Origin: a virus
Strand: one strand, 5' to 3'
DNA length: 51,590 nucleotides
IMG/VR virus record: IMGVR_UViG_3300044822_000051
Location: 1 to 51,590 of that record
The first letter of the stretch is position 1; each line of letters begins with the position of its first letter. The position numbers were made by a program, and so were the translations under genes. Shown piece by piece: positions 4,277 through 36,553 of the stretch. A model generated the notes under the pieces. That model worked only from the letters and a program-made list of their open reading frames with translations, was not told the origin of the DNA and did no database searches.

Positions 4277-4306
4277 ACCTTACGCCAGACTGACGCCCCC
4301 GTCAAC
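4277..4306 (-). promoter_or_regulatory. Operator 1 (4289-4306) between the divergent early operons
   Basis: ACTGACGCCCCCGTCAAC holds the TGAC-N6-GTCA core shared by eleven sites. On the minus strand TTGACG (4305-4300), a 17-bp spacer and TAAGGT (4282-4277) make a promoter facing the replication operon, so the operator covers its -35 box. A weaker plus-strand candidate has TTGACG at 4263-4268. A repressor bound here could gate both early operons. Confidence 0.6.
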
Positions 4307-7360: not shown

Positions 7361-7620
7361 AAATCCTGAAGCAAGGCGAGCCGGCCAAGCTGTACGGCTG
7401 CTGCACTAGGTGCAGGACTGTGGTGGAGACTGATGCGAGGGAGGCAACCAAGGACGGTCCGAGTCAATACATGGTGAAGTGCCCAACATGCGGCACGTAT
7501 TTCCCCGTGTGGGGGCAGGCGGTGCACGTTGATGGTGTTAGGTATCCCCCCGCAAAGCCTGAACCGACGACCACGCGCCTCTGCGGCGCTGGCTTGACAC
7601 TCCCGTCAGTTAAGTCTTAG
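7357..7620 (+). CDS. Zinc-ribbon protein
   Basis: 87 residues. GCCTRC near residue 14-19 and CPTCG at about 41-45 give a C-x2-C...C-x2-C zinc ribbon (KILKQGEPAKLYGCCTRCRT at the start). The gene begins with an ATGA overlap and is the last of the overlapped run. Its 3' end contains the promoter and operator for the TetR-like gene, so its last 9 codons double as regulatory DNA. Function unknown; probably a DNA- or protein-binding accessory factor. Confidence 0.72.
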   Translation: MKILKQGEPAKLYGCCTRCRTVVETDAREATKDGPSQYMVKCPTCGTYFPVWGQAVHVDGVRYPPAKPEPTTTRLCGAGLTLPSVKS

Positions 7621-10720: not shown

Positions 10721-10805
10721 TGGTGGACTAGCCTGGATTCGAACCAGGGAACCCGAAGGACCAGATTTACAGTCTGGCGGCTTTATCCATCTCACCAACT
10801 AGCCC
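10721..10805 (-). tRNA. tRNA-Tyr (anticodon GTA)
   Basis: 85 bases including an encoded CCA. Acceptor GGGCTAG/CTAGTCC (one G-T), anticodon stem CCAGA/TCTGG around loop CTGTAAA, long variable arm as in bacterial tRNA-Tyr, and T-arm CCTGG/CCAGG with TTCGAAT. All arms fold well. Likely functional and cotranscribed with the tRNA-Asn eight bases upstream. Confidence 0.93.
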
Positions 10806-10813
10806 AAACTGAC

Positions 10814-10886
10814 TGGGGGCGGCTGGGCTCGAACCAGCGACAAGCGGCGTAACAGGCCGCTGCTCTACCAACTGAGCTACATCCCA
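10814..10886 (-). tRNA. tRNA-Asn-like (anticodon GTT), imperfect acceptor stem
   Basis: 73 bases. D-arm GCTC/GAGC, anticodon stem GCGGC/GCCGC around CTGTTAC and T-arm GCTGG/CCAGC are intact. The acceptor pairs TGGGATG with CGCCCCC, leaving T-C at position 1-72 and an A-C mismatch, plus one G-T. No CCA is encoded. It may be a decaying gene or a tRNA needing unusual processing. Confidence 0.75.
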
Positions 10887-10902
10887 AAAACCTTAAATTG
10901 AG

Positions 10903-11418: not shown

Positions 11419-11724
11419 TCAACGCAGGTTGATCACAACGCCTGACACGGTGCCATAGCCGTGCGAATTGGCGCGGATTACGGTGCCATCCATCTGGCGG
11501 AAAACCAACCCATTGCTCGGACGCAGCGTGCACGCTTCAATCTGGCGCATGCGGCGCGCACGCTCTTGGGCGCCATTGGGTGTATACGCCTTGCGCGGCA
11601 TCATCCATCGTGGGATTTGTGCCTCACTGCCTCCTCCCGTTAGCACGCGGAATGACGAGCCAAATGATGCCAGTATCGCAGCCAGCGTAGCCCACTGCGA
11701 CCTGTGTACGTTCCCGAATTTCAT
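11419..11724 (-). CDS. Hypothetical protein under operator 3
   Basis: 101 residues, starting MKFGNVHRSQWATLAAILAS. Residues about 10-30 are mildly hydrophobic (QWATLAAILASFGSSFRVLTGG). The C-terminal half contains NGLVFRQMDGTVIRANSHGYG. GGAG is six bases before the ATG, and the promoter with operator 3 lies 28 bases upstream. Not recognised. Confidence 0.65.
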   Translation of the reverse strand: MKFGNVHRSQWATLAAILASFGSSFRVLTGGGSEAQIPRWMMPRKAYTPNGAQERARRMRQIEACTLRPSNGLVFRQMDGTVIRANSHGYGTVSGVVINLR

Positions 11725-11751: not shown

Positions 11752-11780
11752 ACTATACTGACGATTACGTCAGTGCACAA
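11752..11780 (-). promoter_or_regulatory. Promoter with operator 3 (11757-11774)
   Basis: Minus strand: TTGTGC (-35), 17-bp spacer and TATAGT (-10). The spacer is the palindrome ACTGACGTAATCGTCAGT. It directs transcription of 11419-11724 and downstream genes. Confidence 0.7.
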
Positions 11781-11818: not shown

Positions 11819-12013
11819 TCACAGCCCGCGCCGGTCCAGCTCAGCGCGCAAGAGCGCGGCTGCTGCGTCCAGCCTGCAATCGAGCGCCTCCATGAGCTCC
11901 CTACAGGCCCAGCCAAACGCCGCCGCACTCTCAGGGCCTTGGCATGCGGCCACGGTCAGATAGGCCGTCACTGAGCGTTCTATGGCCATCGTGACGTAGG
12001 AGCCACCGCTCAT
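11819..12013 (-). CDS. Small hypothetical helical protein
   Basis: 64 residues, MSGGSYVTMAIERSVTAYLT at the start, Ala/Leu-rich helices with two or three cysteines. The ATG overlaps the stop of the upstream gene (ATGA), giving a two-gene unit. No family recognised. Confidence 0.65.
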   Translation of the reverse strand: MSGGSYVTMAIERSVTAYLTVAACQGPESAAAFGWACRELMEALDCRLDAAAALLRAELDRRGL

Positions 12014-12723
12014 GCTGGCGCACTCGGGCTATTGAGCACCGCGGCTCCAGTACGACGCCCACGTCCCGCCGCCGGCTTAAACGTGGGAATACCGACTCGG
12101 GTACGCGTGTGCGCTCGGCCGGCTGACCCATCCAACGGGATGCCGTCTAACAATATCTGTAGGCTTTCCATGAGCCCTTCAATCGCCTCACGAGCCATAT
12201 CAGCATCGAAGCGTATTTGCCGCTGTAACGCCCGCTGTAGTGCGGCAGATGTGCGCGCGATCTGGCGTGCGGTCTTATCGGTGGGTTCGGGCGGTTGGGA
12301 CATTTTACGCAGACCATCCTTGGTTACCGTTTCAGGCTCCAAGGTGCGCAAATCAACACCACTACGGGCCGCTTCAGCCAATGTGGCCTTAGCGCTACGG
12401 GCAAACCCCGAACGGCTGTTGCGCGCCAGCATGCGTAGATGCCTCACCTCCTTAGGCAGTGAGACATCGTCCACCACATCATCAGTGAGGACTCCACGTA
12501 GAACGGCGGCGTACAAGGGGGTTTCTGCGGTATTGAGCGCCTCCAGCTGCGCTTCCGCAGCCAAAGGCTTGCGCCCACGTGGCGACCCTAACCTCGCTTG
12601 CGTGGCCACCAGCAGCACGCGCAAATAAGTTATTCCTGTGCCTTGCGCCCCATTCAAATGCACTACATGCTCGCGAGCCAATTGCTCAACCTGACTCTCA
12701 GACATAACGTACGGGTTCTTCAT
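12010..12723 (-). CDS. Hypothetical 237-residue protein with repeat-derived leader
   Basis: MKNPYVMSESQVEQLAREHV at the start; helical throughout with a basic Gly/Pro C-terminus. The frame is open back to 12771, but AGGAG lies eight bases before the ATG at 12723 inside the 62-bp repeat, so 12723 is chosen. Upstream the repeat supplies a promoter-like TTTACG-N17-TATATA and a hairpin, and operator 4 lies farther out. I do not recognise a family. Confidence 0.65.
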   Translation of the reverse strand: MKNPYVMSESQVEQLAREHVVHLNGAQGTGITYLRVLLVATQARLGSPRGRKPLAAEAQLEALNTAETPLYAAVLRGVLTDDVVDDVSLPKEVRHLRMLARNSRSGFARSAKATLAEAARSGVDLRTLEPETVTKDGLRKMSQPPEPTDKTARQIARTSAALQRALQRQIRFDADMAREAIEGLMESLQILLDGIPLDGSAGRAHTRTRVGIPTFKPAAGRGRRTGAAVLNSPSAPA

Positions 12724-12725
12724 GA

Positions 12726-12787
12726 TACTTACTCCTGTGCCAACATCATGTTGGTAGCTGTATATATGCATGTGGCGTGCCAGCGTA
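12726..12787 (-). repeat. 62-bp direct repeat, copy 2 (promoter, hairpin and ribosome site)
   Basis: On the minus strand: TTTACG, 17 bp, TATATA (promoter candidate), then CCAACA-TGA-TGTTGG hairpin, then AGGAG leading to the ATG at 12723. The hairpin ends just before the ribosome site, so it could modulate translation. Identical copy at 10484-10545. Confidence 0.75.
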
Positions 12788-12819: not shown

Positions 12820-12837
12820 ACTGACGCGTTCGTCAGT
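12820..12837. promoter_or_regulatory. Operator 4
   Basis: ACTGACGCGTTCGTCAGT, a full palindromic site. The flanking hexamers are poor promoters on both strands (plus: TGAAAA, 17 bp, TATGGC), so it may act on the nearby minus-strand promoter or in looping with other sites. Confidence 0.6.
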
Positions 12838-13422: not shown

Positions 13423-13704
13423 TTACTTTACGCGGCACAGATCATCCCAACGCGGCAACACGACGCATGCGGCACACCAGTCCGAGGGATTCTTACTCAG
13501 CGCATCCACCACGGAACAGCGCACATCGAAACGTAACAGCGGCGGGTGGTCTTGGGGCACGTGCTCAACCATCTTACCGGCCCCTCGCATGATACGGCCT
13601 ATGCGCTGATTCTGGTACGCGTAGGAGTGCGAGGCGCGAGATGGCCACATGGTGCGTGCTTCCGCCGGGGCGTCAATTTGATGGCCGCGTAAGTCTTCAG
13701 TCAC
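13423..13704 (-). CDS. Hypothetical protein under operator 5
   Basis: 93 residues from GTG at 13704, MTEDLRGHQIDAPAEARTMW at the start. Contains QNQRIGRIMRGAGKMV and a C-terminal SDWCAACVVLPRW with C-x2-C. The promoter with operator 5 lies about 30 bases upstream, the best promoter match in this family. Not recognised. Confidence 0.6.
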   Translation of the reverse strand: MTEDLRGHQIDAPAEARTMWPSRASHSYAYQNQRIGRIMRGAGKMVEHVPQDHPPLLRFDVRCSVVDALSKNPSDWCAACVVLPRWDDLCRVK

Positions 13705-13733: not shown

Positions 13734-13762
13734 ACTATACTGACGCTCACGTCAGCAGTCAA
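13734..13762 (-). promoter_or_regulatory. Promoter with operator 5 (13739-13756)
   Basis: Minus strand TTGACT, 17 bp, TATAGT, a near-consensus promoter whose spacer is the palindrome with core TGAC-N6-GTCA. The palindrome arm is CGTCAGC at one end. Confidence 0.75.
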
Positions 13763-14442: not shown

Positions 14443-15369
14443 ATGGAAATTGCGACAGTTCCCGCGGGATCAGCCGTTGCGGCGCCCGCCGACGCCCTCG
14501 AGCCGACCCGCGCCGAAAAAACCGTGGAGTTTGCTCGCGCCAAGTGCAACGCTGCAGAACAGGCGTTTGCAGAGCACTGGGCATCATGCGGCAACAAGGC
14601 CAAGGCGTACAGGTTGGCGATGGGCTACGGCCAGAAGCCTAACGATGAAGTACGTGGGCGCAAGCCGCCGTTCCGCATGTATGCTTCAGCCATTGAGTAC
14701 AGCTTTCGGCCGCACGTCATGGCCTACTTCAACGCGCTGAAATCCCTGGCTGCAGAACGTGCACTGATAGACGTGCAACGCATCCTGCAACACGACGCAG
14801 CAATTGTGACCGCGTGGGAGCAAGGCGCCGCGAATGACCTAACCAGTTATGTTTGGATGAATTGCCGCCGTTGCTGGGGCATAGATGGCGAATACCAGTG
14901 GATTGATGAGAAGGAGTTCGCTGATGCGGGCGCGGCGTGGTTCGCCCAGGTAGCAACGACGTCGGCCGACAATCCCACTCCAGCTCAGCCTACAGATAAA
15001 GGCGGCTACGGGTTTCATGACTGGAATGAGCCCAATCCTGATTGTCGGGCGTGTAAGGGACTGGGTGATCAGCGCAGCATCGTGGCAGATACCACGAAGT
15101 TGGAAGGTGCCGCCGCCGTGCTCTATCGCGGGATAAAGCAAACGGCGAACGGCATTGAAGTGCTAACTCACGACGTAGACAAGGCCAAAGAGCGGCTGCT
15201 CAAGGCTTCGCGCGTTTACGGCGACTCGGCAACCGATGTAGCTCGAGGGGCTGCTGCAGGGGCTGCTGCGGGGGCTGCGGCAGCTCAGGCAGCAAGCCGT
15301 ACAGCTGTCGTCGCCGAGACCATGACGGACGAACAGGCAGCACGGGCGTATTTGGAGCTGGCGGGTTAA
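14443..15369 (+). CDS. Terminase small subunit
   Basis: 308 residues from ATG at 14443 (MEIATVPAGSAV). The text CRRCWGIDGEYQW, then NPDCRACKGLGDQRSIVADT and AVLYRGIKQTANGIEVLTHD is typical of phage small terminases of this length, with an N-terminal DNA-binding helical domain and a C-x2-C / C-x2-C zinc site in the middle. An Ala-rich stretch (about 270-290) precedes the end. It recognises phage DNA and recruits the large subunit. The ribosome site is weak and a GTG at 14416 is possible. A minus-strand accessory cassette separates it from terL. Confidence 0.85.
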   Translation: MEIATVPAGSAVAAPADALEPTRAEKTVEFARAKCNAAEQAFAEHWASCGNKAKAYRLAMGYGQKPNDEVRGRKPPFRMYASAIEYSFRPHVMAYFNALKSLAAERALIDVQRILQHDAAIVTAWEQGAANDLTSYVWMNCRRCWGIDGEYQWIDEKEFADAGAAWFAQVATTSADNPTPAQPTDKGGYGFHDWNEPNPDCRACKGLGDQRSIVADTTKLEGAAAVLYRGIKQTANGIEVLTHDVDKAKERLLKASRVYGDSATDVARGAAAGAAAGAAAAQAASRTAVVAETMTDEQAARAYLELAG

Positions 15370-15502
15370 ACAGCAGCAGCCCTCCTACGTGCGACGAATT
15401 GCGCACTTTGTAGAGTTTCCAGCACAGCGAGCAATCGTTATCCACCGGCACCGAAAGGCCCGCGTAGGTAGGATGCAGGGGGCATGCTAGTGTGATGCTC
15501 AT
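15200..15502 (-). CDS. Small protein with zinc-type N-terminus, overlaps terS 3' end
   Basis: Up to 100 residues. The first 40 (CPLHPTYAGLSVPVDNDCSL then CWKLYKV) match a short phage protein type with C..H.....C..C. The last 56 codons run antisense over terS and have poor composition, so the gene may be shorter or recently extended by loss of its stop. AGGA six bases before the ATG; the ATG overlaps the upstream stop (ATGA). Last gene of the operator 6 cassette. Confidence 0.55.
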   Translation of the reverse strand: MSITLACPLHPTYAGLSVPVDNDCSLCWKLYKVRNSSHVGGLLLFNPPAPNTPVLPVRPSWSRRRQLYGLLPELPQPPQQPLQQPLELHRLPSRRKRAKP

Positions 15503-15627
15503 TTGAAATCCTGACAGACTATCAAGTAGGTTCCGTTAGTGAAACCGAGCGATGGCGTCTTGTTCAAGTATGTTACTGAGCGCACCGTTTTGCCCAGCAG
15601 TTGGGTTGCGTCGCCGAGGATACTCAT
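15499..15627 (-). CDS. 42-residue hypothetical protein
   Basis: MSILGDATQLLGKTVRSVTY at the start, LGFTNGTYLIVCQDFK at the end. GGAG nine bases before the ATG, six bases after the upstream stop, and an ATGA overlap with the next gene. Resembles a small beta-barrel, unassigned. Confidence 0.6.
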   Translation of the reverse strand: MSILGDATQLLGKTVRSVTYLNKTPSLGFTNGTYLIVCQDFK

Positions 15628-15633
15628 GTTGCC

Positions 15634-15840
15634 CTACTCCCAAACGTCGCCATTATCACAATGCCAAAGTATGTCATCCTGTAGGATTGGCCCAGCCCAC
15701 CGAGGGCGCACTTGATCAGTTGGAACGCAATGATGTGTTACGTTAAAGGCGTGTCGGGCTATTAGATACGATACGATAAACCCCACCAATCCAACACAGA
15801 GCATCAGTATGAGCGACATAAGCCATTCCCAGTGTTTCAT
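15634..15840 (-). CDS. Small single-pass membrane protein
   Basis: 68 residues. MKHWEWLMSLILMLCVGLVG begins a membrane helix (about residues 7-28) followed by a polar tail with two cysteines. GGAG seven bases before the ATG, and an ATGA overlap with the upstream gene. Could alter the host envelope, for example exclusion; inference only. Confidence 0.7.
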   Translation of the reverse strand: MKHWEWLMSLILMLCVGLVGFIVSYLIARHAFNVTHHCVPTDQVRPRWAGPILQDDILWHCDNGDVWE

Positions 15841-16208
15841 ACCAGCACTCCTTCGTAGCCCCGTTCGCGTTGGTTGAGCCAGTCGCACACAGCTTGTGCG
15901 TCGTTGTCGTTGTACGCGCTGCGGTGCGAGCCGCAAAAATCCGCGTAGCTGAACAGTGACCCGTATGCCCATACTAGCTCGCCGCATATGGCCGGAAACA
16001 CCCCTGCGACCTTTTTCGTCAGGTACGTCTTGGGCGGCGCGGGGTCCACTATAGCGACTAGGATTCTAGGCTCACTCTTGGCCCAAACTTCGACAGGCGC
16101 GCGAAATCGGTTGGCCAGATTCGCCGCCGCGTCTAGATACGGCCTGAGTATTGAATCATCGCCTTGCGCGTAGCGACGTGATTTAGCTTCAGACATCAGA
16201 ATGTGCAT
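15837..16208 (-). CDS. Hypothetical protein, first sure gene of the operator 6 cassette
   Basis: 123 residues, MHILMSEAKSRRYAQGDDSI at the start. AGGAG seven bases before the ATG. Contains a compact alpha/beta stretch (VWAKSEPRILVAIVDPA) and a C-terminal NDNDAQAVCDWLNQRERGY helix. No family recognised. Transcribed from the promoter at 16406-16434, against the late genes. Confidence 0.68.
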   Translation of the reverse strand: MHILMSEAKSRRYAQGDDSILRPYLDAAANLANRFRAPVEVWAKSEPRILVAIVDPAPPKTYLTKKVAGVFPAICGELVWAYGSLFSYADFCGSHRSAYNDNDAQAVCDWLNQRERGYEGVLV

Positions 16209-16274
16209 GGTTGGGCTCCTACTTTAGTAAATCGCGTCGGGTGCGTTACAATGCTCGCACGGCTACCGTATCGT

Positions 16275-16385
16275 TCACGGTAGATCCGTTTCAATCTGTT
16301 CGGCGCGGAAGTTCAAATCTTCGATGGCTTCCCGCGTATCTTCGCCGAGTTCTTTAAATGCCTCCGTTTCGATGAAATTGCGCAG
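16275..16385 (-). CDS. Possible 36-residue acidic peptide with no standard start
   Basis: The frame reads RNFIETEAFKELGEDTREAI and continues EDLNFRAEQIETDLP, an amphipathic acidic helix with coding-like composition. No ATG, GTG or TTG is in frame after the promoter; CTG at 16385 is the only near start. Either unusual initiation or a truncated remnant. Confidence 0.3.
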   Translation of the reverse strand: MRNFIETEAFKELGEDTREAIEDLNFRAEQIETDLP

Positions 16386-16405
16386 TTCAAGGCAGATGTG
16401 AGCCC

Positions 16406-16434
16406 AGTATACTGACGGCGCCGTCAGTTTGCAA
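16406..16434 (-). promoter_or_regulatory. Promoter with operator 6 (16411-16428)
   Basis: Minus strand TTGCAA, 17 bp, TATACT. The palindrome ACTGACGGCGCCGTCAGT fills the spacer. The -35 box starts immediately after the TAG of the gene at 16435-16719. Drives the 15.2-16.2 kb cassette. Confidence 0.78.
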
Positions 16435-16719
16435 CTAGTAAATCGCGTTAGGTGTGTCAGTGATCCCGTGAGCCATCATGAAATAAATGCGCTTGCTTAC
16501 CTGCGTTGCCACGGGCTCGCCAAAGCGGAACATCCCCACGATGAATATTCCAGGCGTGGGTATGGGCTCACCTACCCACTTGATAAATTCGGCCTGCAGA
16601 AACAAGCGCGCCTCGGTTTGTTCGGGGCTGCGGTCTGGCGCTTGCACCATATCGACAAGGCGCCGTACTTGGCGCATAGCCTCGGCGTGCTGCACTCGGG
16701 CGAAGTTGAGGGTTGGCAT
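16435..16719 (-). CDS. Hypothetical protein under operator 7
   Basis: 94 residues from ATG at 16719 (MPTLNFARVQHAEAMRQVRR), with GGAG nine bases upstream. The frame stays open to 16800, but that extension reads through the promoter and operator, and an ATG there lies within the -10 box, so it cannot be the start. C-terminal IFIVGMFRFGEPVATQVSKR. No family recognised. Confidence 0.62.
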   Translation of the reverse strand: MPTLNFARVQHAEAMRQVRRLVDMVQAPDRSPEQTEARLFLQAEFIKWVGEPIPTPGIFIVGMFRFGEPVATQVSKRIYFMMAHGITDTPNAIY

Positions 16720-16771
16720 GGGGCGCTGCTCCGTGTTAGGCGCGCTGGCATTATCGCCAGGGGTTGATATA

Positions 16772-16800
16772 CTCATACTGACGGCGCCGTCAGTTTGCAA
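16772..16800 (-). promoter_or_regulatory. Promoter with operator 7 (16777-16794)
   Basis: Minus strand TTGCAA, 17 bp, TATGAG, with the same perfect palindrome as operators 6, 8 and 11. The flanks match operator 8 beyond the promoter (GCTTTATTTGC), pointing to duplication of the whole promoter module. Confidence 0.75.
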
Positions 16801-16814
16801 GCTTTATTTGCGAG

Positions 16815-16958
16815 TCAAAAATGCCAACTTATGGCTTGGACGGCTTCCGCGCGCGTACGGTGCAGCGAGTGCGTCACACTGGTTTGACCATGCTTTGTCT
16901 CATAGTAGGCTGTAGCCTTCCACAACGCGCCGTGGCGGCTGATAATGGCCGCAAACAT
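16815..16958 (-). CDS. 47-residue hypothetical protein
   Basis: MFAAIISRHGALWKATAYYE at the start, then THSLHRTRAEAVQAISWHF. The ATG directly follows the stop of the upstream gene (TAGATG), so the two form an operon under operator 8. Resembles small beta-hairpin-plus-helix DNA-binding proteins (integrase-arm type), but that is weak. Confidence 0.6.
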   Translation of the reverse strand: MFAAIISRHGALWKATAYYETKHGQTSVTHSLHRTRAEAVQAISWHF

Positions 16959-17174
16959 CTAGCGGCGCACCTTGGAAAATTCGGTCTTGGTGCCGTCCGC
17001 ATTCACGAGCATGTGGCGGACCTTGCGGGCCTTTGCAGCCGGTGCAGGAGACCAACGGGTAAAGCCGTTGTCGTTCTGCACAACGTTTGCGTTGAGGGGT
17101 TTGGCGTAGGCTATCGCGGTGAGAAAGCTGTTGAAGCCTTTCCCGTTTACTGAGTATGTGTATTTCGTTTCCAT
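16959..17174 (-). CDS. Hypothetical protein under operator 8, predicted leaderless
   Basis: 71 residues from ATG at 17174, METKYTYSVNGKGFNSFLTA. The -10 box TATATT ends eight bases before the ATG, which places the transcription start at or next to the initiation codon, with no ribosome site. An extension to 17210 would read through the operator and is rejected. Basic C-terminus. No family recognised. Confidence 0.6.
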   Translation of the reverse strand: METKYTYSVNGKGFNSFLTAIAYAKPLNANVVQNDNGFTRWSPAPAAKARKVRHMLVNADGTKTEFSKVRR

Positions 17175-17181
17175 GGGAGAT

Positions 17182-17210
17182 AATATACTGACGGCGCCGT
17201 CAGTTTGCAA
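17182..17210 (-). promoter_or_regulatory. Promoter with operator 8 (17187-17204)
   Basis: Minus strand TTGCAA, 17 bp, TATATT, perfect palindrome in the spacer. Reads away from terL, which starts 48 bases to the right. Confidence 0.75.
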
Positions 17211-19847: not shown

Positions 19848-20910
19848 GTCAACGGGTGATCCTGAGCTAGACGCCTATTTCAAGGCGGATAGAGCGGCGG
19901 ACAACCGTTTTACTCCACGTCGATTAAAACCTAAAACCCTCGCCTCGATCCAACCCAATGTTGGCGTTACCACATGGTATAGGAACGAGCTGTACGCGTT
20001 GGTGCGGCAGTCGCATGTTGATTTACTTAAGGAGCTGAAAGCGCCAACTGAGGTGGCGCTGGCGCAGGATGCGCGTATACGTCTGGCCGGGGTTCGGTAC
20101 GTAAAGCCGCAAATTGTCCACCTCGCATACGATAGCGATGGGCAAGCTGTTGAGTCTGAGGTGGTACCCGAGCGTTGGGAAATTACGTGCGATGCCGCGT
20201 CCCCCAACGCGCGCCTAGACGCTGCGCTCAAACGCTGGGGCGCGAAGTGGAACGGTAAGTTTGACAAGGCTGCGCAGCACATCGCCAAACGGTTCGCCAG
20301 TAAGAGCTATAAGGCCACGCAGGCGCAGTTCCTTGCCGAGCTCAAGAAAGCCGGTTTCACCGTACGGTTCAAAGTTACCAAGGCATCCTTGGAGGCGTTC
20401 CGGGCCACCGTGGCCGAGAATGTTGGGTTGATAAAATCGATTCAATCGCAGTATCTAACACGCGTGCAAGGTGACGTATGGCGAGCGGTGACCCGTGGCT
20501 CAGACTTGTACACACTGAGTCAGACTTTACGGAAGAGTTACGACGTGACAACGAAGCGTGCTGCACTGATAGCGCGCGACCAGAATGCGAAGGCCAAGGC
20601 GACGATAGAGAACACGCGCCGAATGGAGCTTGGGATTACGCAAGCTATATGGCAGCACTCATCCGCCGGGAAGGAGCCCAGGCCGTCTCATGTAGCTATG
20701 AACGGGAAAACTTTCGAGCTGGCAAAGGGTATGTTCGATTCTGATGAACAAGAGTGGATTTTGCCCGGCCAATTGATAAACTGCCGCTGTACGTCCAGGG
20801 CAATCTTGCCTATGTTGGGTCAAGGCGACGATAGAGAACACGCGCCGCATGGAGCTTGGGATTACGCAAGCTATACGGCAGCACTCATCCGCAGGGTGAC
20901 TGAAATCTAG
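19828..20910 (+). CDS. MuF-like minor head protein (head morphogenesis) with novel C-terminus
   Basis: 360 residues. The C-terminal third has the Mu gpF / SPP1 gp7-type pattern: AALIARDQNAKAKATIENTR, IWQHSSAGKEPRPSHVAMNG, and WILPGQLINCRCTSRAI. These minor head proteins act during prohead assembly or enter the cell with the DNA. The last 30 residues (QGDDREHAPHGAWDYASYTA and on) are encoded by a near copy of 20595-20670 read in another frame, so the tail is a new addition. ATG at 19828 overlaps the upstream gene by 20 bases. Confidence 0.85.
   Translation: MRKKRSESTGDPELDAYFKADRAADNRFTPRRLKPKTLASIQPNVGVTTWYRNELYALVRQSHVDLLKELKAPTEVALAQDARIRLAGVRYVKPQIVHLAYDSDGQAVESEVVPERWEITCDAASPNARLDAALKRWGAKWNGKFDKAAQHIAKRFASKSYKATQAQFLAELKKAGFTVRFKVTKASLEAFRATVAENVGLIKSIQSQYLTRVQGDVWRAVTRGSDLYTLSQTLRKSYDVTTKRAALIARDQNAKAKATIENTRRMELGITQAIWQHSSAGKEPRPSHVAMNGKTFELAKGMFDSDEQEWILPGQLINCRCTSRAILPMLGQGDDREHAPHGAWDYASYTAALIRRVTEI
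20595..20670 (+). repeat. 76-bp direct repeat within the MuF-like gene, copy 1 (copy 2 at 20821-20896)
   Basis: 73 of 76 positions are identical between 20595-20670 and 20821-20896. Copy 1 encodes KATIENTRRMELGITQAIWQ in the main frame. Copy 2 is in another frame and supplies the C-terminal end of the same protein. Confidence 0.92.
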
Positions 20911-20913
20911 AGC

Positions 20914-20942
20914 TTGCAGACTGACGGCCCAGTCAGTATACT
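20914..20942 (+). promoter_or_regulatory. Promoter with operator 9 (20920-20937)
   Basis: Plus strand TTGCAG, 17 bp, TATACT with ACTGACGGCCCAGTCAGT in the spacer. The only promoter of this type facing the same way as the late genes. It drives 20972-21833. Confidence 0.75.
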
Positions 20943-20971
20943 GCGCCGGTCATTGAAGAGTTAGCACAATC

Positions 20972-21103
20972 ATGCACTGCTGCGGCTGTAAAGTCAGTTG
21001 GTTTTATAACTTTTGTTGCCGCTGGTGCGGGGCTGACTATTCGAAGGTCATAGATCTATTTACTGAGGAGAACACGAAACATGAAACGAGAGATGTTGGA
21101 TAA
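20972..21103 (+). CDS. 43-residue zinc-ribbon protein
   Basis: MHCCGCKVSWFYNFCCRWCG at the start: two knuckles, C-x2-C and C-x2-C, nine bases of linker apart, enough for one zinc. About 30 bases after the -10 box of operator 9. Its 3' end overlaps the next gene by 23 bases. No strong ribosome site is visible. Confidence 0.6.
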   Translation: MHCCGCKVSWFYNFCCRWCGADYSKVIDLFTEENTKHETRDVG

Positions 21104-21833
21104 ACTGATTAGGTTGATTTGCGCGGCTACGCCTGATTGGTCGCCTACGCAGCGTGAGCAATGTAATAAGCTCATAAAGGATCTGCGCGACATGTGCCCG
21201 AGTGTTGAGGAGTTGGCCCATGCGGCGAAATCTAAGATTGACTGGGCGAATCAGGTTAACATGGGTTCGGTGGCCAAGGCCGAAGCGTCGTCCCCGAATG
21301 CTGCCGAAATGGCCAAGGGTGAATCGCCGCGACCCCATTTGGAGTTGGCTGAAGAACTCCATGCAGTGCGTCAAGAGCTCAACTTGTGTAAGGCGCGGGC
21401 CGTAGCGGTTGATGATGCGCAGAAGGAGTTGGCCCGAGTGGTCGGTGTTAACCGTGAGATTGACCGTGCACGGGATGCTTTGGCCAAGGAGTTGGCCCGA
21501 GTGGTACAGACGAGTGGTACAGAGTTGGCCGAATCTAAAAAGTGGGCAAGCCGATTACAGGAAGAGTTGAATGTTGCGATTGCGAACAAGAATGACTACC
21601 GCTTCGAACGGGAGAAGTTGGCTGAAGAACTCGATGCAGTGCGTCAAGAGCTAGACATAGCGCACCGCACACTCGCCAGCAAAAATGAAGAGTTGGCAGA
21701 GTTCAAGAAATTCGTCGAAGATTTGAGTGAAGATCTGCCATCGTCGTATTCCGCGGGAGCTAAGATATGGGTCAAATGTCAAAAATATGGGCTGAAGTGG
21801 CGCGGCGTGCCTCAGGTGCCCTACTACGCCTGA
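21081..21833 (+). CDS. Coiled-coil protein containing a major capsid peptide
   Basis: 250 residues. GAGGAG nine bases before the ATG. After an N-terminal helical head, residues 52-64 read KIDWANQVNMGSV, identical to residues 147-159 of the major capsid protein (27398-28435). Residues about 85-235 form a long heptad coiled coil with internal repeats (LAEELHAVRQEL and LAEELDAVRQEL; KELARVV twice). It is expressed from the operator 9 promoter. Possible roles are assembly regulator, decoy, or trigger of capsid-sensing host systems; none is shown. Confidence 0.7.
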   Translation: MKREMLDKLIRLICAATPDWSPTQREQCNKLIKDLRDMCPSVEELAHAAKSKIDWANQVNMGSVAKAEASSPNAAEMAKGESPRPHLELAEELHAVRQELNLCKARAVAVDDAQKELARVVGVNREIDRARDALAKELARVVQTSGTELAESKKWASRLQEELNVAIANKNDYRFEREKLAEELDAVRQELDIAHRTLASKNEELAEFKKFVEDLSEDLPSSYSAGAKIWVKCQKYGLKWRGVPQVPYYA

Positions 21834-21870
21834 TTTGACATAATATCGCATAGCCCCGCACCATGGGGCT
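21834..21870 (+). promoter_or_regulatory. TTTGACATAAT motif and start-site hairpin before portal
   Basis: TTTGACATAAT (21834-21844) recurs at 25382-25392 and, as TTTAACATAAT, at 32601-32611, always 9-52 bases before a plus-strand structural gene. It lacks a proper -35/-10 pair and may be a phage late-promoter element. AGCCCC/GGGGCT then forms a hairpin ending at the portal ATG, so no free Shine-Dalgarno is present. Confidence 0.4.
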
Positions 21871-23499
21871 ATGCGTATCCTAGCCAAACTCCGTCGATTA
21901 TTTGCCCGCATTCGGGCCGCATTTCACGAGCCCCCTGCGCCGGCTGTAGCACCGCCCCCTCCCGAGCCGCCACGCATTCCGTGGGACTATCTAATATCCC
22001 GTCTTAAGCAGCCTGAGGAACCCCCGAGGCGTGAGCTGCAGCTCCCGCAACTATTGCCCGGCGTACGCCCCGCCAAGCTTCCTAGCGCCAGTGAGGTGGT
22101 GCTCGCCCTGGATTCAGCGGGCAACCAAGAGCCGATGGCCACGGACGCTATGCCCGCCTCGTGGGGCTATACGGGCAATGGCACCCTTGGCCCAGGGCTC
22201 GCGTTTCTCGGGTTCCCGTACCTCGCCGAGCTGACCCAAATCAGCGAGTACCGCATACCGGCGGAGACACTGTCTACGGAGATGACTCGCACTTGGGTCA
22301 AGCTGAAGAACAAGGGCAAGAAGAAGTTAGACGACAAGATAGCGGAAATCACGCAAGCCTTCGAAGATTTCAAGTTGCGTGACGTGTTCCGCGAAGCCGC
22401 ACTCAAGACTGAAGAGTTTGGCCGTGCGCATGTGGCCATCAACATCAAAGGCCAAGATAGCGATATAACGCGCCAATTGCCGCTGACCAAGATCCAGAAA
22501 GGTACGCTGTTAGGTTTCAAATGCATTGAGCCTTATTGGCTCACGCCCTACTCGTGGAATTCCACGCGCCCGCGCGATGCGGATTTCTACAAACCTCAGT
22601 CATGGTTCGAAATGGGCAAGAAAACCCATGCGAGCCGCTACCTGACGTTTATCTTTCGCGAAGTGCCGGATCTGTTGAAACCAGCGTATGACTTCGCAGG
22701 TATCAGCATTACTCAGCTTATGATGCCTTACGTACAACGTTGGTTGCGTACGGCAAAGAACGTCAATGATCTAATCAACATTTTTTCAATTGTTACGTTG
22801 GCCACCGATTTGCAGACTATGCTGCAAGCGCCAGATGACTCCCCCGAGAGTCTAATGGGCCGGTTAAGAGCGTTTACAGCAGCCCGCGACAATCGCGGTG
22901 CCATGGTCATCAACAAGGACACGGAAGAACTGTCCGTTAATGACGTATCGCTCGGCTCGCTGGACAAGCTGCAAGCTCAGTCTCAGGAGCATATGGCCAC
23001 GCCGGCCCGTATGCCGCTGATCAAGTTTTTCGGCATCACGCCCACGGGGCTCAATGCGACTAGCGAAGGTGAGTTTCAGAGCTGGTACGACTACGTTAAG
23101 TCGCTGCAGGTGTTGGGATACGGGCCGCACCTTGAACGTGCGCTAGAGCTGGTCCAAATGCATCTCTATGGCGAAGTTGACCCGGATATCACCTATGAAT
23201 TCCTATCACTGTACGAGCCCACGCCTAAGGAAGAGGGTGAAATGCGCAAGGCGGACGCTGAACGGGATAGCGTGTATTTGGATAAAAGCGTCGTATCGCC
23301 TGATGAGGTTAGAGAGAAATTGCGCATAGATCCAAAGAGCGGCTATGGCGATTTGGAGGGCGACGCGCCACCTCCACCGGAGCAGGCGGAATTTGAGCTG
23401 GGCGAGAAAGGCGCTGAATCGGCGCATGGTCGCAGTGAAGAGTCAGCCGAGAACGCCCATGAGCGGCAATTGGAAATACAGACGACGGAGGGTGAGTGA
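21871..23499 (+). CDS. Portal protein (DUF1073-like)
   Basis: 542 residues. The body fits the DUF1073 portal group: AELTQISEYRIPAETLSTEM, then LRDVFREAALKTEEFGRAHV, DNRGAMVINKDTEELSVNDV, ARMPLIKFFGITPTGLNATS and EGEFQSWYDYVKSLQ. The N-terminal 80 residues are Pro-rich and the C-terminal 60 acidic, as usual. Forms the dodecameric ring at the head vertex through which DNA enters. Its stop overlaps the next ATG (TGATG). Confidence 0.9.
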   Translation: MRILAKLRRLFARIRAAFHEPPAPAVAPPPPEPPRIPWDYLISRLKQPEEPPRRELQLPQLLPGVRPAKLPSASEVVLALDSAGNQEPMATDAMPASWGYTGNGTLGPGLAFLGFPYLAELTQISEYRIPAETLSTEMTRTWVKLKNKGKKKLDDKIAEITQAFEDFKLRDVFREAALKTEEFGRAHVAINIKGQDSDITRQLPLTKIQKGTLLGFKCIEPYWLTPYSWNSTRPRDADFYKPQSWFEMGKKTHASRYLTFIFREVPDLLKPAYDFAGISITQLMMPYVQRWLRTAKNVNDLINIFSIVTLATDLQTMLQAPDDSPESLMGRLRAFTAARDNRGAMVINKDTEELSVNDVSLGSLDKLQAQSQEHMATPARMPLIKFFGITPTGLNATSEGEFQSWYDYVKSLQVLGYGPHLERALELVQMHLYGEVDPDITYEFLSLYEPTPKEEGEMRKADAERDSVYLDKSVVSPDEVREKLRIDPKSGYGDLEGDAPPPPEQAEFELGEKGAESAHGRSEESAENAHERQLEIQTTEGE

Positions 23500-24294: not shown

Positions 24295-24540
24295 CCCTTG
24301 ACTTCTGCGAGGGAGAAGTCCGCTTGGTTCGTCCTGCATCGGTTGCGTGAGGCGTGCGGCGATGAATTGCCGAAGCTGTCCGGCATCGTCGAGATTGACG
24401 AGACCTACATCGGCGGCAAAGAGGGGAACAAACGCGAGCGCAAGAAGCTCAAGGCTGGACGCTCTATTCTCGAGGCGGCCTGCCGTCGCGTATCGACGGA
24501 AAGAAGATCACCGGTTGTTACCCATTTCGCGCTAACCTAA
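24295..24540 (+). pseudogene. Remnant of an IS1595 (ISXO2-like) transposase
   Basis: The frame gives EKSAWFVLHRLREACGDELP, then GIVEIDETYIGGKEGN and KKLKAGR, the helix-turn-helix end and first catalytic D region of ISXO2-type DDE transposases. It has no proper start (a stop lies just upstream in frame), and after about 24460 the homology breaks off, so both ends of an enzyme of about 300 residues are missing. No terminal inverted repeats found. It lies exactly between the DUF2213 protease and the minus-strand cassette, marking a past insertion. Confidence 0.82.
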
Positions 24541-25096
24541 CTAAGTAGTCTGCAAACGACGTGGGTGTAATGTGAGTCTCTTTGTCATTGAGTCTCGGTA
24601 AAAGCCGGTTGCCCGTATGCACGCCGCCGCCGATTTGATGCGAGCCGCGCGGACGATCCTCGTTAAACGGCAGGGGCGTGGCGTCCCCCACGTATAGCAG
24701 CCATGTGCGTTTGGCGGCTTTATGCCCGTAGGCGCTTTGCCAAACTTCCGCAACCCACTCTTTCTCGTTTACGCGGCTCCAGCCGGTGCCTACGGGCTTT
24801 TGCAACCCGAACGCGCCCCAAGCTATTGAGAACGCAGGGTGCTCAAGAACGCCGCCGTAGAGGCGCACAGCGCCAAGCGCCGCTTTGAAACACCCGCCGT
24901 CGTCGCCGACTTTCGCGCCCCATCGGCGTTCGTTCATGCGGGCCATGCCACACCAACGTCCGCAAGGGGGGTGTGCCACCACGCGGTTTGGCCCCGCGTA
25001 GTTACGTGCGTCGCGTTTCTCATCCCAACAATCGACGCCGGCCATTTTCGGGTACGGCCCGTTAGGATCAATGTAGAGAGCAGATATATTAATCAT
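24518..25096 (-). CDS. DNA methylase-like protein with PPC motif
   Basis: 192 residues. VVAHPPCGRW (about 38-47) and GGVLEHPAFSIAW (about 80-92) recall motif IV (PC) and the following ENV-like motif of cytosine-C5 methylases; later GTGWSRVNEKEWVAEVWQSA, GHKAAKRTWLLYVG. A phage family of this shape is often labelled methyltransferase, but a SAM-binding FxGxG motif is not seen, so activity is uncertain. ATG at 25096 has no good ribosome site. It is the distal gene of the cassette under operator 10. Its start may be coupled to the upstream gene, 32 bases away. Confidence 0.65.
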   Translation of the reverse strand: MINISALYIDPNGPYPKMAGVDCWDEKRDARNYAGPNRVVAHPPCGRWCGMARMNERRWGAKVGDDGGCFKAALGAVRLYGGVLEHPAFSIAWGAFGLQKPVGTGWSRVNEKEWVAEVWQSAYGHKAAKRTWLLYVGDATPLPFNEDRPRGSHQIGGGVHTGNRLLPRLNDKETHITPTSFADYLVRLARNG

Positions 25097-25128: not shown

Positions 25129-25311
25129 TCAGGTGAATTCGGGTTCGAAACCGTGTTGGCGGGCGCGGAACAATTCGTCTTGATCATTGTCAGACATGCC
25201 TTGCCACGCCCAATAGACGTTGTGCATCCAATCTCCGCGACGATTTTCCTTAGCGCCGAGTTCGTTGCACTGCTGCATGACGCGGCTATCGGTCTGTTCT
25301 GATGTCGTCAT
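25129..25311 (-). CDS. 60-residue hypothetical protein under operator 10
   Basis: MTTSEQTDSRVMQQCNELGA at the start, GGGAG seven bases before the ATG, charged and helical (AWQGMSDNDQDELFRARQHG). First gene after the promoter at 25346-25374. No family recognised. Confidence 0.65.
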   Translation of the reverse strand: MTTSEQTDSRVMQQCNELGAKENRRGDWMHNVYWAWQGMSDNDQDELFRARQHGFEPEFT

Positions 25312-25345: not shown

Positions 25346-25374
25346 ACTTTACTGACCCTTTCGTCAGCTTGCAA
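25346..25374 (-). promoter_or_regulatory. Promoter with operator 10 (25351-25368)
   Basis: Minus strand TTGCAA, 17 bp, TAAAGT. The site ACTGACCCTTTCGTCAGC keeps the TGAC-N6-GTCA core with a changed centre. Just to its right lies the plus-strand TTTGACATAAT motif, so the region is divergent. Confidence 0.7.
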
Positions 25375-25381
25375 GGCCCGA

Positions 25382-25411
25382 TTTGACATAATGCAGCCAC
25401 GTGGAAATACT
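25382..25411 (+). promoter_or_regulatory. TTTGACATAAT motif before the scaffold-like gene
   Basis: Same 11-base element as before portal. Here TTGACA (25383-25388), 17 bp and AATACT (25406-25411) can also be read as an ordinary promoter, in which case translation would begin at the GTG of 25452. Confidence 0.45.
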
Positions 25412-26204
25412 CCGAATTACATATGTCCTATCTCATCAGGAATTACACCCCGTGAAGCTAGCCGCTGTTATCGACGTGATTGCGCCGTTTTTGGCGACGG
25501 ACAAGAAACCGGCTGATGTACAAAAGGCCATCTTGGCGGCAGACAAAAAGGCGAAGGATGCAGCGGGTTCGGGCCTGGGCTCACGTGAGCTCGAGGAGAG
25601 TGACCGGCCCGGCGCGAAGGATGCCGCCATGGACGCGCGTGAAGCAGCGTGTGATGAGCGCGAAGAGACCATGGACGCGGCTGAGGAAAAGGCTGACGCG
25701 GGCAAGGAAGACAAGGAAGCCAAGGACCGCAAAGCGGCCCGCGACAAGCGCGCCAAAGACCGCGCTGACCGGAAAATGGGCCGTGATAAGGCCGCAAGGG
25801 ACCGCAATGACGATCCCGAACACACAAATGATGAGAATTTTATGGAAGGAGCCAACCCGTCCACGCCCGGCGGTAGCCGCGCAGGTGGCAAGACTGCGAT
25901 TGACTCGGGCGAGGCTGACCGGCGCATTGCGGCGGCGATTGCCGCGCGTGACGCGCTCCATGCGGCTCGCACCGATGTGCAGTCGATTCTCGGCGTGACT
26001 GCATTCGACAGCGCGGGCGCGACGTACGCCGCTGCGCTGAAGCACCTTGGCGTAGCGACGGACGGCATTCCCGAGAGTGCCTACGGCGCCATGCTCGCGC
26101 TGGCGCGCAAGAGCGCGGCCCAGGCGCAGCCTACCGGCGCATCGGATGCCGCCACCGTGGCGACCATGTCCACCCTTATTCCCGGCTACGGCCGACTGCG
26201 TTAA
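25401..26204 (+). CDS. Scaffold-like protein, possible split-off C-terminus of the DUF2213 protease
   Basis: 267 residues from GTG 25401; an internal GTG at 25452 has AGGA at good spacing and gives VKLAAVIDVIAPFLATDKKP, text like the start of the C-terminal part in longer DUF2213 proteins. The centre is highly charged (EEKADAGKEDKEAKDRKAAR), as in scaffolds. The C-terminus (TAFDSAGATYAAALKHLGVA) resembles the end of those fused proteases. Likely guides capsid assembly. Separated from the protease by 1.1 kb of insertion. The split is an inference. Confidence 0.7.
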   Translation: MEILRITYVLSHQELHPVKLAAVIDVIAPFLATDKKPADVQKAILAADKKAKDAAGSGLGSRELEESDRPGAKDAAMDAREAACDEREETMDAAEEKADAGKEDKEAKDRKAARDKRAKDRADRKMGRDKAARDRNDDPEHTNDENFMEGANPSTPGGSRAGGKTAIDSGEADRRIAAAIAARDALHAARTDVQSILGVTAFDSAGATYAAALKHLGVATDGIPESAYGAMLALARKSAAQAQPTGASDAATVATMSTLIPGYGRLR

Positions 26205-27359: not shown

Positions 27360-27397
27360 CACCGGCCAATAGCACCCGAGAGATTACGGAACTCATT

Positions 27398-30852: not shown

Positions 30853-31385
30853 GCTACTCTGTCAGTATCACACTTCAGAATGTGTATGAAGTGGTGCAAC
30901 CGCTGGTCATGGCGGTGACCGGGCTCGGGCAGAGTTTGGTGATACAGGACGCGCCGAATCGCAGCGCTATGCCGCCGGCATCGCCCGGATTCGTGGTCAT
31001 GCAGCTCACGCGGCAAAAACGCCTGCGCACGAATGTGGACACGACTCCGCCGGGTGCGAATCCTACCACTCAGTCGATTGAACAAGGGACGGAGCTTACG
31101 CTGCAGTTGGATTGTTATGGCGCCAGCTCAGGCGACTGGGCACAGATGTTGTCCGCGATCCTACGTGACGAACAGGGCTGCAATGCGCTAGAGCCCACGT
31201 GTGACCCACTTTATTGCGACGACCCCATGTGGGCGCCATTGGATGATTCAGAGCTGCAGTACGAGCAACATTGGATGCTATTTGCGAAACTGCAGTACAA
31301 TCCGATAACCACGGTGGGCCAGCAGTACGCCGACATCGTGGATTTTACACCGGTCAGCGTCAATCAGAAATTTCCTCCGGGTTGA
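30849..31385 (+). CDS. Tail terminator-like protein (LIC_12616 type)
   Basis: 178 residues. MSYSVSITLQNVYEVVQPLV then SPGFVVMQLTRQKRLRTNVD and SIEQGTELTLQLDCYG, DWAQMLSAILRDEQGCNALE match the phage neck/tail terminator group known as LIC_12616. It caps the tail tube and joins it to the neck. The 3' end overlaps a convergent minus-strand gene by 26 bases. Confidence 0.78.
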   Translation: MSYSVSITLQNVYEVVQPLVMAVTGLGQSLVIQDAPNRSAMPPASPGFVVMQLTRQKRLRTNVDTTPPGANPTTQSIEQGTELTLQLDCYGASSGDWAQMLSAILRDEQGCNALEPTCDPLYCDDPMWAPLDDSELQYEQHWMLFAKLQYNPITTVGQQYADIVDFTPVSVNQKFPPG

Positions 31386-31638
31386 CCGGTGGGACGCCCG
31401 CGCACGATTTGAACTCGGGCGGCTTGTCGCACAGTTTCTTAAACTCCTTCCGATGTTGTTCTACAGTCTGCCATTCGCGCCAAATCACGTGAATGACTTG
31501 GCGTTCATCGTCACAGCATTCGGTGAGCTGTGCCGCGAGTGACCAAACCATGTCCATAAGCGCGGCCTTGCTCAATTTCCCCAGTTCCCCGGTATGTTTG
31601 TAAGGGACCAAGGCGGGCGGAATATTTTTAAGATGCAT
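31360..31638 (-). CDS. Hypothetical accessory protein
   Basis: 92 residues, MHLKNIPPALVPYKHTGELG at the start, helical core DMVWSLAAQLTECCDDERQV. TTCCTGTT before the start gives AGGAAC on the minus strand as ribosome site. Last gene of the minus-strand cassette at 31.4-32.5 kb. Not recognised. Confidence 0.62.
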   Translation of the reverse strand: MHLKNIPPALVPYKHTGELGKLSKAALMDMVWSLAAQLTECCDDERQVIHVIWREWQTVEQHRKEFKKLCDKPPEFKSCAGVPPVNPEEISD

Positions 31639-31686: not shown

Positions 31687-32145
31687 TCAGCGAACGGTCC
31701 CGCCTTGGTTGTACAATCGCACGAATGCCAGCGCAAGGGTGCGCCTGTATTCGGTCCGCGCCGATGCGCTAACGCGGTCGTACTCGGCCCATGCGGCGGC
31801 GCGAACGCGGTCAAACTCGGCCTGTGCGGCGGCGCAAACGCGGTCGTACTCAGCCAGCGCCGGTGCGCGAACGCGGTTGTACTCAGCCAGCGCCGATGCG
31901 TAAACGCGGTCGTACTCGGCCCATGCGGCGGCGCAAACGCGGTCGTACTCAGCCAGCGCCGGTGCGCAAACGCGGTCGTACTCAGCCCGCGCGGTTAGGG
32001 GGAGAAGCTCACCGACCCAACTCCGACGGAACTTATCGACTACCTTTAGGGCGACTTCCTCGGTGACTTCCACAGAGTCGCCAAACAGCGCGCGTTGGCC
32101 TTCGCATGCGCCGGCATCAATTAATTGTTGCAGTGTTAGTTTCAC
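31687..32145 (-). CDS. Protein with eight 11-residue repeats
   Basis: 152 residues. The N-terminal 45 (LQQLIDAGACEGQRALFGDS and EVALKVVDKFRRSW) form a head seen in other phage repeat proteins. Residues 54-141 are eight copies of an 11-mer of type AEYDRVCAPAL (DNA period 33 bp, 31723-31986). Eleven-residue periodicity favours an extended helical, right-handed coiled coil. AGGAGC lies before the ATG. Number of repeats can change by slippage. Function unknown; I know similar repeats from phage genomes without assigned role. Confidence 0.75.
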   Translation of the reverse strand: MKLTLQQLIDAGACEGQRALFGDSVEVTEEVALKVVDKFRRSWVGELLPLTARAEYDRVCAPALAEYDRVCAAAWAEYDRVYASALAEYNRVRAPALAEYDRVCAAAQAEFDRVRAAAWAEYDRVSASARTEYRRTLALAFVRLYNQGGTVR

Positions 32146-32267: not shown

Positions 32268-32531
32268 TTAGGTCAGATCGTATCCGGTGATAGTCCACTC
32301 AAGGTCGCTCAAGTCCTCAACCCCCTCCAGATCGGCGGCCGACTGGTAGTAGTACGCGGTCAACACAGCATCGCCGTTATCCGAAATTGACGCTGAGTAT
32401 TCCACGCTATCGTCACCATCAGTCTGCAGGCGACCCGTGGGCGCGCAGTTGACGCTATCCAGCATGTTTACCAGCTCGGCGCCAATCGCCTGAATTGCCT
32501 GCTCGCGAGTCATTATGCCTTTGGTGCTCAT
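32268..32531 (-). CDS. Hypothetical protein under operator 11
   Basis: 87 residues, MSTKGIMTREQAIQAIGAEL at the start, very acidic in the second half (DNGDAVLTAYYYQSAADLEG), ending WTITGYDLT. GGAG precedes the ATG by about 11 bases. Acidic small proteins under accessory control could be DNA mimics (anti-defence), but that is speculation. Confidence 0.65.
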   Translation of the reverse strand: MSTKGIMTREQAIQAIGAELVNMLDSVNCAPTGRLQTDGDDSVEYSASISDNGDAVLTAYYYQSAADLEGVEDLSDLEWTITGYDLT

Positions 32532-32558: not shown

Positions 32559-32587
32559 AGTATACTGACGGCGCCGTCAGTTTGCAA
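32559..32587 (-). promoter_or_regulatory. Promoter with operator 11 (32564-32581)
   Basis: Minus strand TTGCAA, 17 bp, TATACT, perfect palindrome in the spacer. Twenty bases to the right, the plus strand has TTTAACATAAT ahead of the first secreted-protein gene. Confidence 0.78.
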
Positions 32588-34291: not shown

Positions 34292-34292
34292 A

Positions 34293-35738: not shown

Positions 35739-36553
35739 GGCACTTTTTGCTGTACGTTGTCACGGCTTTCTTAGGGATTGTTGGGCTGCAGCCCAACGCA
35801 TTCGCCACCGCGTCTGTGCGTCAAGAATCCCATACGGCATGGACTGCCGCGGGAGCGACCACGGTTACTACACCCGCGTTTGGCTCGGCTGTGCTTACAG
35901 GCGACACTATAGAAACGTGGGTAATCTGCAGTTGCACCACGACGCCCACGGGTGTTACGGATTCTGGTAGTCAGACATATACTCTGCGCACGTCGGTGCA
36001 CGATAACAATACAGGCGTGACAATCTATCTATATACGCACGTCAATAATTCCAGTGCTACGGCGTTGACCGTCACGGCCACGTGGGGTGCTGCGGAAACA
36101 TACAACGGAATATGGGCGAAGGATATTACAGGCGTCTCATCTAGCCCGTACCAGACAGCCGGCGGTCAGTCGCAGGCTAACCCCGGTACTACTACGGGTT
36201 TGATTAGCAGCGGCAATGTGACGCCCACGGGCCAACCTGCCCTCATTTCATCTTTGTCCTGGGATTCTGCGGGTAATGCATCCAGCATAGTGGCCGGATC
36301 ACAGACTGCAGGCTCCAACGGCTGGCTGCTGAGCGGCGGCACGGCACCTACAGGGAGTTCGGGCTCTCAGCGTGTGACCAGCACGTCTGCCATTGCCATG
36401 ACGTACTCAAATAGTACGGACGGCGGTTCTGCTGACTTTGTCACAATGGCGGCTATTTATACTGAGGCTACCGCCACAGGATCGCCCAACCAACATATGC
36501 CGCTGACCGGCGTCGCAAAAGTTATTCGTCCGCAATTCAAGAAGGCTGCCTAA
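35735..36553 (+). CDS. Secreted beta-sandwich protein, Sec signal peptide
   Basis: 272 residues, GTG start overlapping the previous stop. MRHFLLYVVTAFLGIVGLQP then NAFA forms the signal, cut probably after AFA. The mature text (VTTPAFGSAVLTGDTIETWV, IWAKDITGVSS) resembles beta-sandwich domains of surface proteins. Ends with a basic tail. Function unknown. Confidence 0.68.
   Translation: MRHFLLYVVTAFLGIVGLQPNAFATASVRQESHTAWTAAGATTVTTPAFGSAVLTGDTIETWVICSCTTTPTGVTDSGSQTYTLRTSVHDNNTGVTIYLYTHVNNSSATALTVTATWGAAETYNGIWAKDITGVSSSPYQTAGGQSQANPGTTTGLISSGNVTPTGQPALISSLSWDSAGNASSIVAGSQTAGSNGWLLSGGTAPTGSSGSQRVTSTSAIAMTYSNSTDGGSADFVTMAAIYTEATATGSPNQHMPLTGVAKVIRPQFKKAA

Follow-up and report, generated by a model that had tools for sequence, protein, structure and literature searches.

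Counter-oriented islands in the late operon of a small myophage apparently belong to an early regulon with a TetR_N-type operator

Operator-bearing units in the late block

The window analysed here, a stretch of 51,590 nt (IMG/VR record IMGVR_UViG_3300044822_000051), is a complete phage record of the myophage type, encoding a tail sheath gene. Its plus-strand structural genes are interrupted by minus-strand units at 15.2-17.2, 24.5-25.3 and 31.4-32.5 kb (islands hereafter), each of which starts with a sigma70-like promoter that holds a palindromic operator, TGAC-N6-GTCA (Table 1). Because the islands, the replication genes and a gene for a small TetR_N-type DNA-binding protein (tetR_N) carry the same 14-base operator, newly gained island genes apparently enter a shared early control circuit. 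We compared the window with nine relatives, whole or in part (10 genomes), while counts of promoter spacing and repeat identity were made on 13 genomes with 156 TGAC-N6-GTCA sites.

The palindrome has 11 copies in the window versus 0.59 expected, a number reached by none of 100 shuffles, and the full promoter pattern TTGnnnnCTGACnnnnnnGTCAGTAnACT has eight matches versus 0.04 expected. Eight operator copies sit in TTGnnn-N17-TAnAnT promoters, seven of them on the minus strand. The initial annotation had described the three counter-oriented units, and they are real, each with the operator promoter at its start. It had seen the same promoter-operator throughout; four copies (16413, 16779, 17189 and 32566) do share the exact core TGACGGCGCCGTCA, but the copy at 25353 has the variant core TGACCCTTTCGTCA. 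Between terS and terL it had placed three modules, two of them identical even beyond the promoter. Three promoters are present there, and those at 16779 and 17189 are identical over 37 nt, but the other 37-nt pair links 16413 with 32566, and the 16779 copy has a poor -10 hexamer (TATGAG). Nor is every accessory unit counter-oriented, as a further one is driven from the plus strand (20914-20942). Identical runs of at least 20 nt were found in 8 of 963 within-genome pairs versus 1 of 11,121 between-genome pairs, and the identical promoter copies inside one genome favour copying of the module.

The -10 hexamers cluster at fixed distances from the operator: 16 hexamers lie at +15, and four and six lie at +22 and +23, versus a mean of 0.93 per offset. 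In the +15 class the operator fills the 17-nt spacer, and in the +22/+23 class it supplies the -35; both positions would suit repression by occlusion. Some promoters have a CRP-like TGTGA element upstream, as judged by eye. Plus-strand promoter-like stretches (TTTGACATA...GTGGAAATACTC; in phage MSW-3, TTGACAGTTTGGCGCGTCCGGCATACTAT) adjoin island promoters at 25367-25420 in the window, 4124-4190 in G001 and 8000-8060 in L117, and might perhaps restart late transcription after an island.

An operator promoter of their own had been taken as a feature of the cassettes. They do have one, but the same operator also stands before tetR_N (7595) and at 4291, 11759, 12822 and 13741, so that it appears to be a regulon signal of replication operons and of the phage's TetR_N gene rather than a cassette-specific element. 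The site in the divergent region at the helicase operon occurs in 10/10 genomes and the site directly before tetR_N in 8/10. The pattern of the window recurs in the nine relatives and in cultured MSW-3, C1, CP-T1 and 138. Many near-identical operators at promoters, whose early class we take from gene function, are also what multi-operator phage repressors have.

Table 1. Operators, promoters and genes of the window discussed in the text
Feature	Position	Strand	Remarks
Operator between exo/ssb operon (-) and helicase operon (+)	4291..4304		Divergent region; all 10 genomes
Operator TGACACTCCCGTCA overlapping -35 of tetR_N promoter	7595..7608		Putative autoregulation; homologous position occupied in G001, G002, G003, G006, G007, G024, G026
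Stand-alone TetR_N DNA-binding protein, 96 amino acids	7648..7938	+	Candidate master repressor; PF00440 E 3.5e-10; phrog_8723 E 1.5e-27
Promoter-operator upstream of open reading frame (ORF) 11419-11724	11752..11780	-	Pattern match; operator at 11759
Operator upstream of conserved gene a1 (12010-12771, -)	12822..12835		Palindrome scan
Promoter-operator upstream of ORF 13423-13704	13734..13762	-	Pattern match; operator at 13741
Small genes of unit 3	15634..16208	-	ORF 15837-16208 and overlapping ORF 15634-15987
Promoter-operator unit 3, terS-terL junction	16406..16434	-	37 nt identical to copy at 32559
Small gene behind promoter 16772-16800	16435..16719	-	No family match
Promoter-operator unit 2, terS-terL junction	16772..16800	-	Weak -10, TATGAG
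Small gene behind promoter 17182-17210	16959..17174	-	No family match
Promoter-operator unit 1, terS-terL junction	17182..17210	-	37 nt identical to 16779 copy
Promoter-operator, co-oriented extra unit	20914..20942	+	Upstream of accessory coiled-coil-like gene 21081-21833
IS1595/ISXO2-like transposase remnant	24298..24540	+	PF12762 E 2.5e-6, above curated cut-off; between conserved head gene and 24.5 kb cassette
24.5-25.3 kb cassette, second gene	24518..25096	-	Short protein, predicted C5-cytosine-methyltransferase-like fold; HPPC and EHP motifs; phrog_12600 E 1.6e-47
24.5-25.3 kb cassette, first gene	25129..25311	-	60 amino acids; no confident family match
Promoter-operator of 24.5-25.3 kb cassette	25346..25374	-	Variant core TGACCCTTTCGTCA
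31.4-32.5 kb cassette, third gene	31360..31638	-	No confident family match
31.4-32.5 kb cassette, second gene	31687..32145	-	33-nt in-frame tandem repeats (AEYDRVCAxAx)
31.4-32.5 kb cassette, first gene	32268..32531	-	No confident family match
Promoter-operator of 31.4-32.5 kb cassette	32559..32587	-	Pattern match; 37 nt identical to 16413 copy

Variable junctions and exchanged cargo

The islands vary among related phages. The h2/h3 junction, which holds the 24.5-25.3 kb cassette, spans 1143 bp in the window versus 96 bp in G001 and 37 bp in G003, and the c6/sheath junction spans 5.6 kb versus 12 bp in G001. Hardly any homologues of the cargo genes occur in relatives. Across late junctions, the operator was found in 2 of 181 gaps shorter than 250 nt versus 22 of 42 larger ones; without four early-block gaps, 18 of 38 larger late junctions have a site (p 5e-14). 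Two cultured phages about 95% identical to each other, CP-T1 and 138, have islands that differ by blocks: 1.15 kb of CP-T1 (21625-22775, including a Lar-like gene) is missing in 138, and 138 has three blocks (20761-21171, 26625-27469 and 33466-34059) that CP-T1 lacks. All of these difference blocks lie in or beside minus-strand genes. Conserved synteny of the cassettes is therefore rejected, as the junctions are variable among relatives.

The initial annotation had proposed a transferable unit of promoter plus small gene, to be judged by presence and absence at these junctions. The variable junctions and identical promoter copies agree with mobility, but often only the cargo differs and the promoter is retained. 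At the h2/h3 junction of G001 the site is present and the cassette absent; the window and G001 share a conserved terL-proximal promoter but not the genes that follow it; and the cargo of CP-T1 and 138 differs although their island promoters are near-identical. This part of the evidence points to exchange of cargo behind a resident promoter rather than to transfer of promoter and gene together. In unit 3, the gene at 15837-16208 has a partial homologue at a different location in G002. Directly behind the promoter at 16406-16434 lies an open frame (16278-16405, containing LRNFIETEAFKELGEDTREAIEDLN) in which the usual start codon is absent; the promoter module may have interrupted a gene here. 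ORF 15200-15502, which overlaps the end of terS, is doubtful.

Family searches gave no confident match for most cargo genes of the window. The protein of 24518-25096 had no Pfam match; its best PDB fold matches are C5-cytosine methyltransferases, at weak scores (E 4.6e-3, TM 0.40), and its HPPC motif is invariant. With moderate confidence, it is predicted to fold like a short C5-cytosine methyltransferase, and it has homologues in unrelated phages, microvirus records included. As a CP-T1 island also carries an annotated Lar-like anti-restriction gene, an anti-restriction function of island cargo seems plausible. The suggestion of anti-defence cargo is thus reasonable for these genes, but the other cargo has no assigned function.

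Besides the islands, a block at 32663-36982 consists of four plus-strand genes that have no family matches and are absent at this junction in G001. Since partial homologues of two of these genes sit elsewhere in G002, between terS and terL, the block seems to change place.

A candidate regulator and the distribution of its putative operator

The 96-amino-acid TetR_N protein contains the N-terminal helix-turn-helix domain of the TetR family, as seen from both Pfam and fold matches. Its AlphaFold model is all-helical (pLDDT 95), and its best PDB matches by sequence and by fold are TetR-family structures; the fold scores (Foldseek E 0.015, TM about 0.5) are weak, since the matched proteins have twice its length. 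The C-terminal ligand-binding and dimerisation domain is missing, and because the protein is so short and its model stops after one long helix, we call it TetR_N-type and not a full TetR. The proteins common to all operator-rich phages are exo, e3, helicase, nuclease, TetR_N and primase, among which TetR_N is the sole member with a recognised specific DNA-binding domain. TetR_N is the probable repressor that would read the palindrome.

Homologues of TetR_N were found in cultured phages by tblastn. MSW-3, C1 (vB_KsaM-C1), CP-T1 and 138 have 12, 14, 9 and 8 sites, respectively, versus about 0.8-1.3 expected. In an unbiased search for 5-mer inverted repeats, TTGAC-N6-GTCAA was the sole family with at least five copies in MSW-3, CP-T1 and 138; in C1 it came second to TGACG-N4-CGTCA. 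Of the 13 late counter-oriented islands of MSW-3, C1 and CP-T1, 11 have an exact site within 220 nt of their start. The remaining two have an exact site in the same gap (MSW-3 4288) and a one-mismatch site (C1, at an annotated HNH endonuclease gene). Random placement equalled the island-start result in 28, 2 and 0 of 20,000 trials for MSW-3, C1 and CP-T1. In TetR_N phages whose late block is unbroken (SppYZU01, PD0307, AeroV_348 and Psp6; 367.14 lacks annotation) 0-3 sites were counted, and relatives without TetR_N have 0-2, apart from one with six.

Two further comparisons connect the operator with the regulator. Aeromonas phage 56 shares the structural module of the window and has neither TetR_N nor operator enrichment, whereas the replication module of the window matches that of TetR_N phages, suggesting that the operator follows the regulator and not the capsid genes. 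In aligned TetR_N proteins, operator-rich genomes have T, S or I at the position equivalent to residue 37 of the window protein, which lies in the predicted recognition helix, whereas seven operator-poor genomes have L or A there. Site density differs between these classes with a Mann-Whitney p of 6e-6 (G002 entered as 6 instead of 5), a value that is only indicative because the genome rows are related.

Proposed morons in an early regulon and the competing explanations

We consider it probable that the minus-strand units are morons captured into an early regulon controlled by TetR_N. By morons we mean accessory genes that are exchanged horizontally, carry promoters of their own and, here, sit within the late operon; the units are indeed missing from the same junctions (h2/h3 and c6/sheath) of related phages and, judged from sequence alone, have their own consensus promoter. 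The host sigma70 RNA polymerase would read the islands from their promoters, where the palindrome either occupies the 17-nt spacer or serves as the -35. TetR_N would then bind the palindrome and shut the island promoters, the replication operons and its own gene, so that cargo would be produced in an early burst before being switched off. We infer this binding, repression and timing from the arrangement of sites and genes, and we propose that convergent transcription would in this way spare the plus-strand late genes.

Several observations weigh against this account. An exact site directly before tetR_N is missing from G009 and G032, G035 (the record of L097) has six sites and no TetR_N match, and six cultured phages and G031 encode TetR_N without operator enrichment. 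Counter-oriented islands in phiPLPE and phage 56 have no TGAC-N6-GTCA operator, so islands do not need the TetR_N circuit. The TetR_N protein is without the ligand-binding and dimerisation domain of TetR proteins, the helix-3 residue and the site counts are not phylogenetically independent, and the genes were assigned to the early class by their function.

Part of this evidence would suit a reader of the palindrome other than TetR_N, which would then be a bystander: a regulator of the host, or a phage protein not recognised as such, for example a1 (12010-12771). The a1 gene has an operator upstream and is conserved in several relatives, and TetR_N occurs without an enriched operator in seven genomes. 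However, a1 matched no family, and no homologue of it was detected in MSW-3, C1 or CP-T1; a host regulator is disfavoured by the presence of the same palindrome in phages whose hosts differ widely; and the operator both precedes tetR_N itself and tracks its recognition-helix residue, which makes this explanation unlikely. It is less likely again that TetR_N is an activator that switches the island and replication promoters on. The site does lie in or next to the promoter, and the -10 is poor at 16779 and 12822, but most copies have good consensus hexamers, and an operator inside the spacer or on the -35 is typical of repression by occlusion. That the palindromes are recombination, integration or replication sites, serving as landing pads for cassettes, is very improbable: they do occur at variable junctions and in 37-nt identical copies, and one cassette adjoins a transposase remnant, but they are found as well before conserved core operons where nothing has been inserted, and their distance from the -10 boxes is fixed. 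Finally, ordinary vertically inherited early operons without exchange would account for promoters that have kept their position (terL-proximal in the window and G001; CP-T1 and 138), but are hardly credible given the empty junctions of G001 and G003, cargo without homologues in relatives and the insertion blocks of CP-T1 and 138, and are already refuted for the 24.5-25.3 and 31.4-32.5 kb units.

The moron concept is reportedly due to Juhala and Hendrix. As in that concept, the captured morons proposed here are accessory genes that lie between conserved late genes, have a promoter of their own and are absent in relatives; they differ in their counter-orientation, in holding several genes and in their link to the operator of a regulator encoded by the phage itself. 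With TetR family repressors, TetR_N shares the helix-turn-helix fold, a palindromic operator and putative autoregulation, but not the usual length or the C-terminal domain. The repressor of Cluster A mycobacteriophages likewise is one phage DNA-binding protein with many sites dispersed over the genome as operators or stoperators (PMC6550527, PMC9283540). Those sites are described there as asymmetric and as also stopping elongation (PMC9283540), whereas the sites here are palindromic and at promoters, the TetR_N protein is unrelated, and no integrase was seen among the genes scanned.

Also close are the phiPLPE-like dwarf myoviruses CP-T1, 138 and phiPLPE (PMC3391216) and MSW-3 (Yokohamavirus MSW3), which have a TetR-like gene and counter-oriented groups in the structural block; by our computation, CP-T1, 138 and MSW-3 also have the same operator as the window. 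The paper on these phages names tetR in CP-T1, 138 and phiPLPE and ties this type to bacterial osmotic-stress responses, and the words operator, promoter and island do not occur in it (PMC3391216). It also leaves unexplained the temperate behaviour of CP-T1, whose genome contains none of the known lysogeny genes (PMC3391216). That paper proposed GC-rich repeats of CP-T1 and 138 as attachment sites; these were considered and set aside, being tandem repeats and not the TGAC-N6-GTCA palindrome. A tentative and rather doubtful extension is that TetR_N acts as an immunity-type repressor of an unrecognised lysogeny or pseudolysogeny switch, with about ten dispersed operators and no integrase; if true, this would explain the temperate behaviour of CP-T1 and make the island cargo a repressor-controlled gene set.

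Literature searches, with subscription papers outside their coverage, found no earlier description of this architecture, and moron islands wired into a TetR_N-operator early regulon apparently are a real, general and undescribed arrangement. It would offer a rule for finding accessory genes, often perhaps anti-defence genes, across a broad range of small myophages, namely behind TGAC-N6-GTCA promoters opposite to the late strand. It would also assign a likely role to a phage gene labelled merely 'TetR', predict a code between recognition helix and operator, and make the temperate behaviour of CP-T1 testable via deletion of one small gene.

As to the window as a whole, megablast against phages gave no match, and a capsid-alignment scan of the genome collection turned up neither host nor prophage. 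The genome is a mosaic, with a late block (compared with L172) that resembles Aeromonas phage 56 and a replication module that resembles CP-T1/SppYZU01-type phages. Positions 1-127 and 51464-51590 form identical 127-nt repeats at the two ends, which marks the record as either circular or terminally redundant. Genes for tRNA-Tyr and tRNA-Asn lie at 10721-10887.

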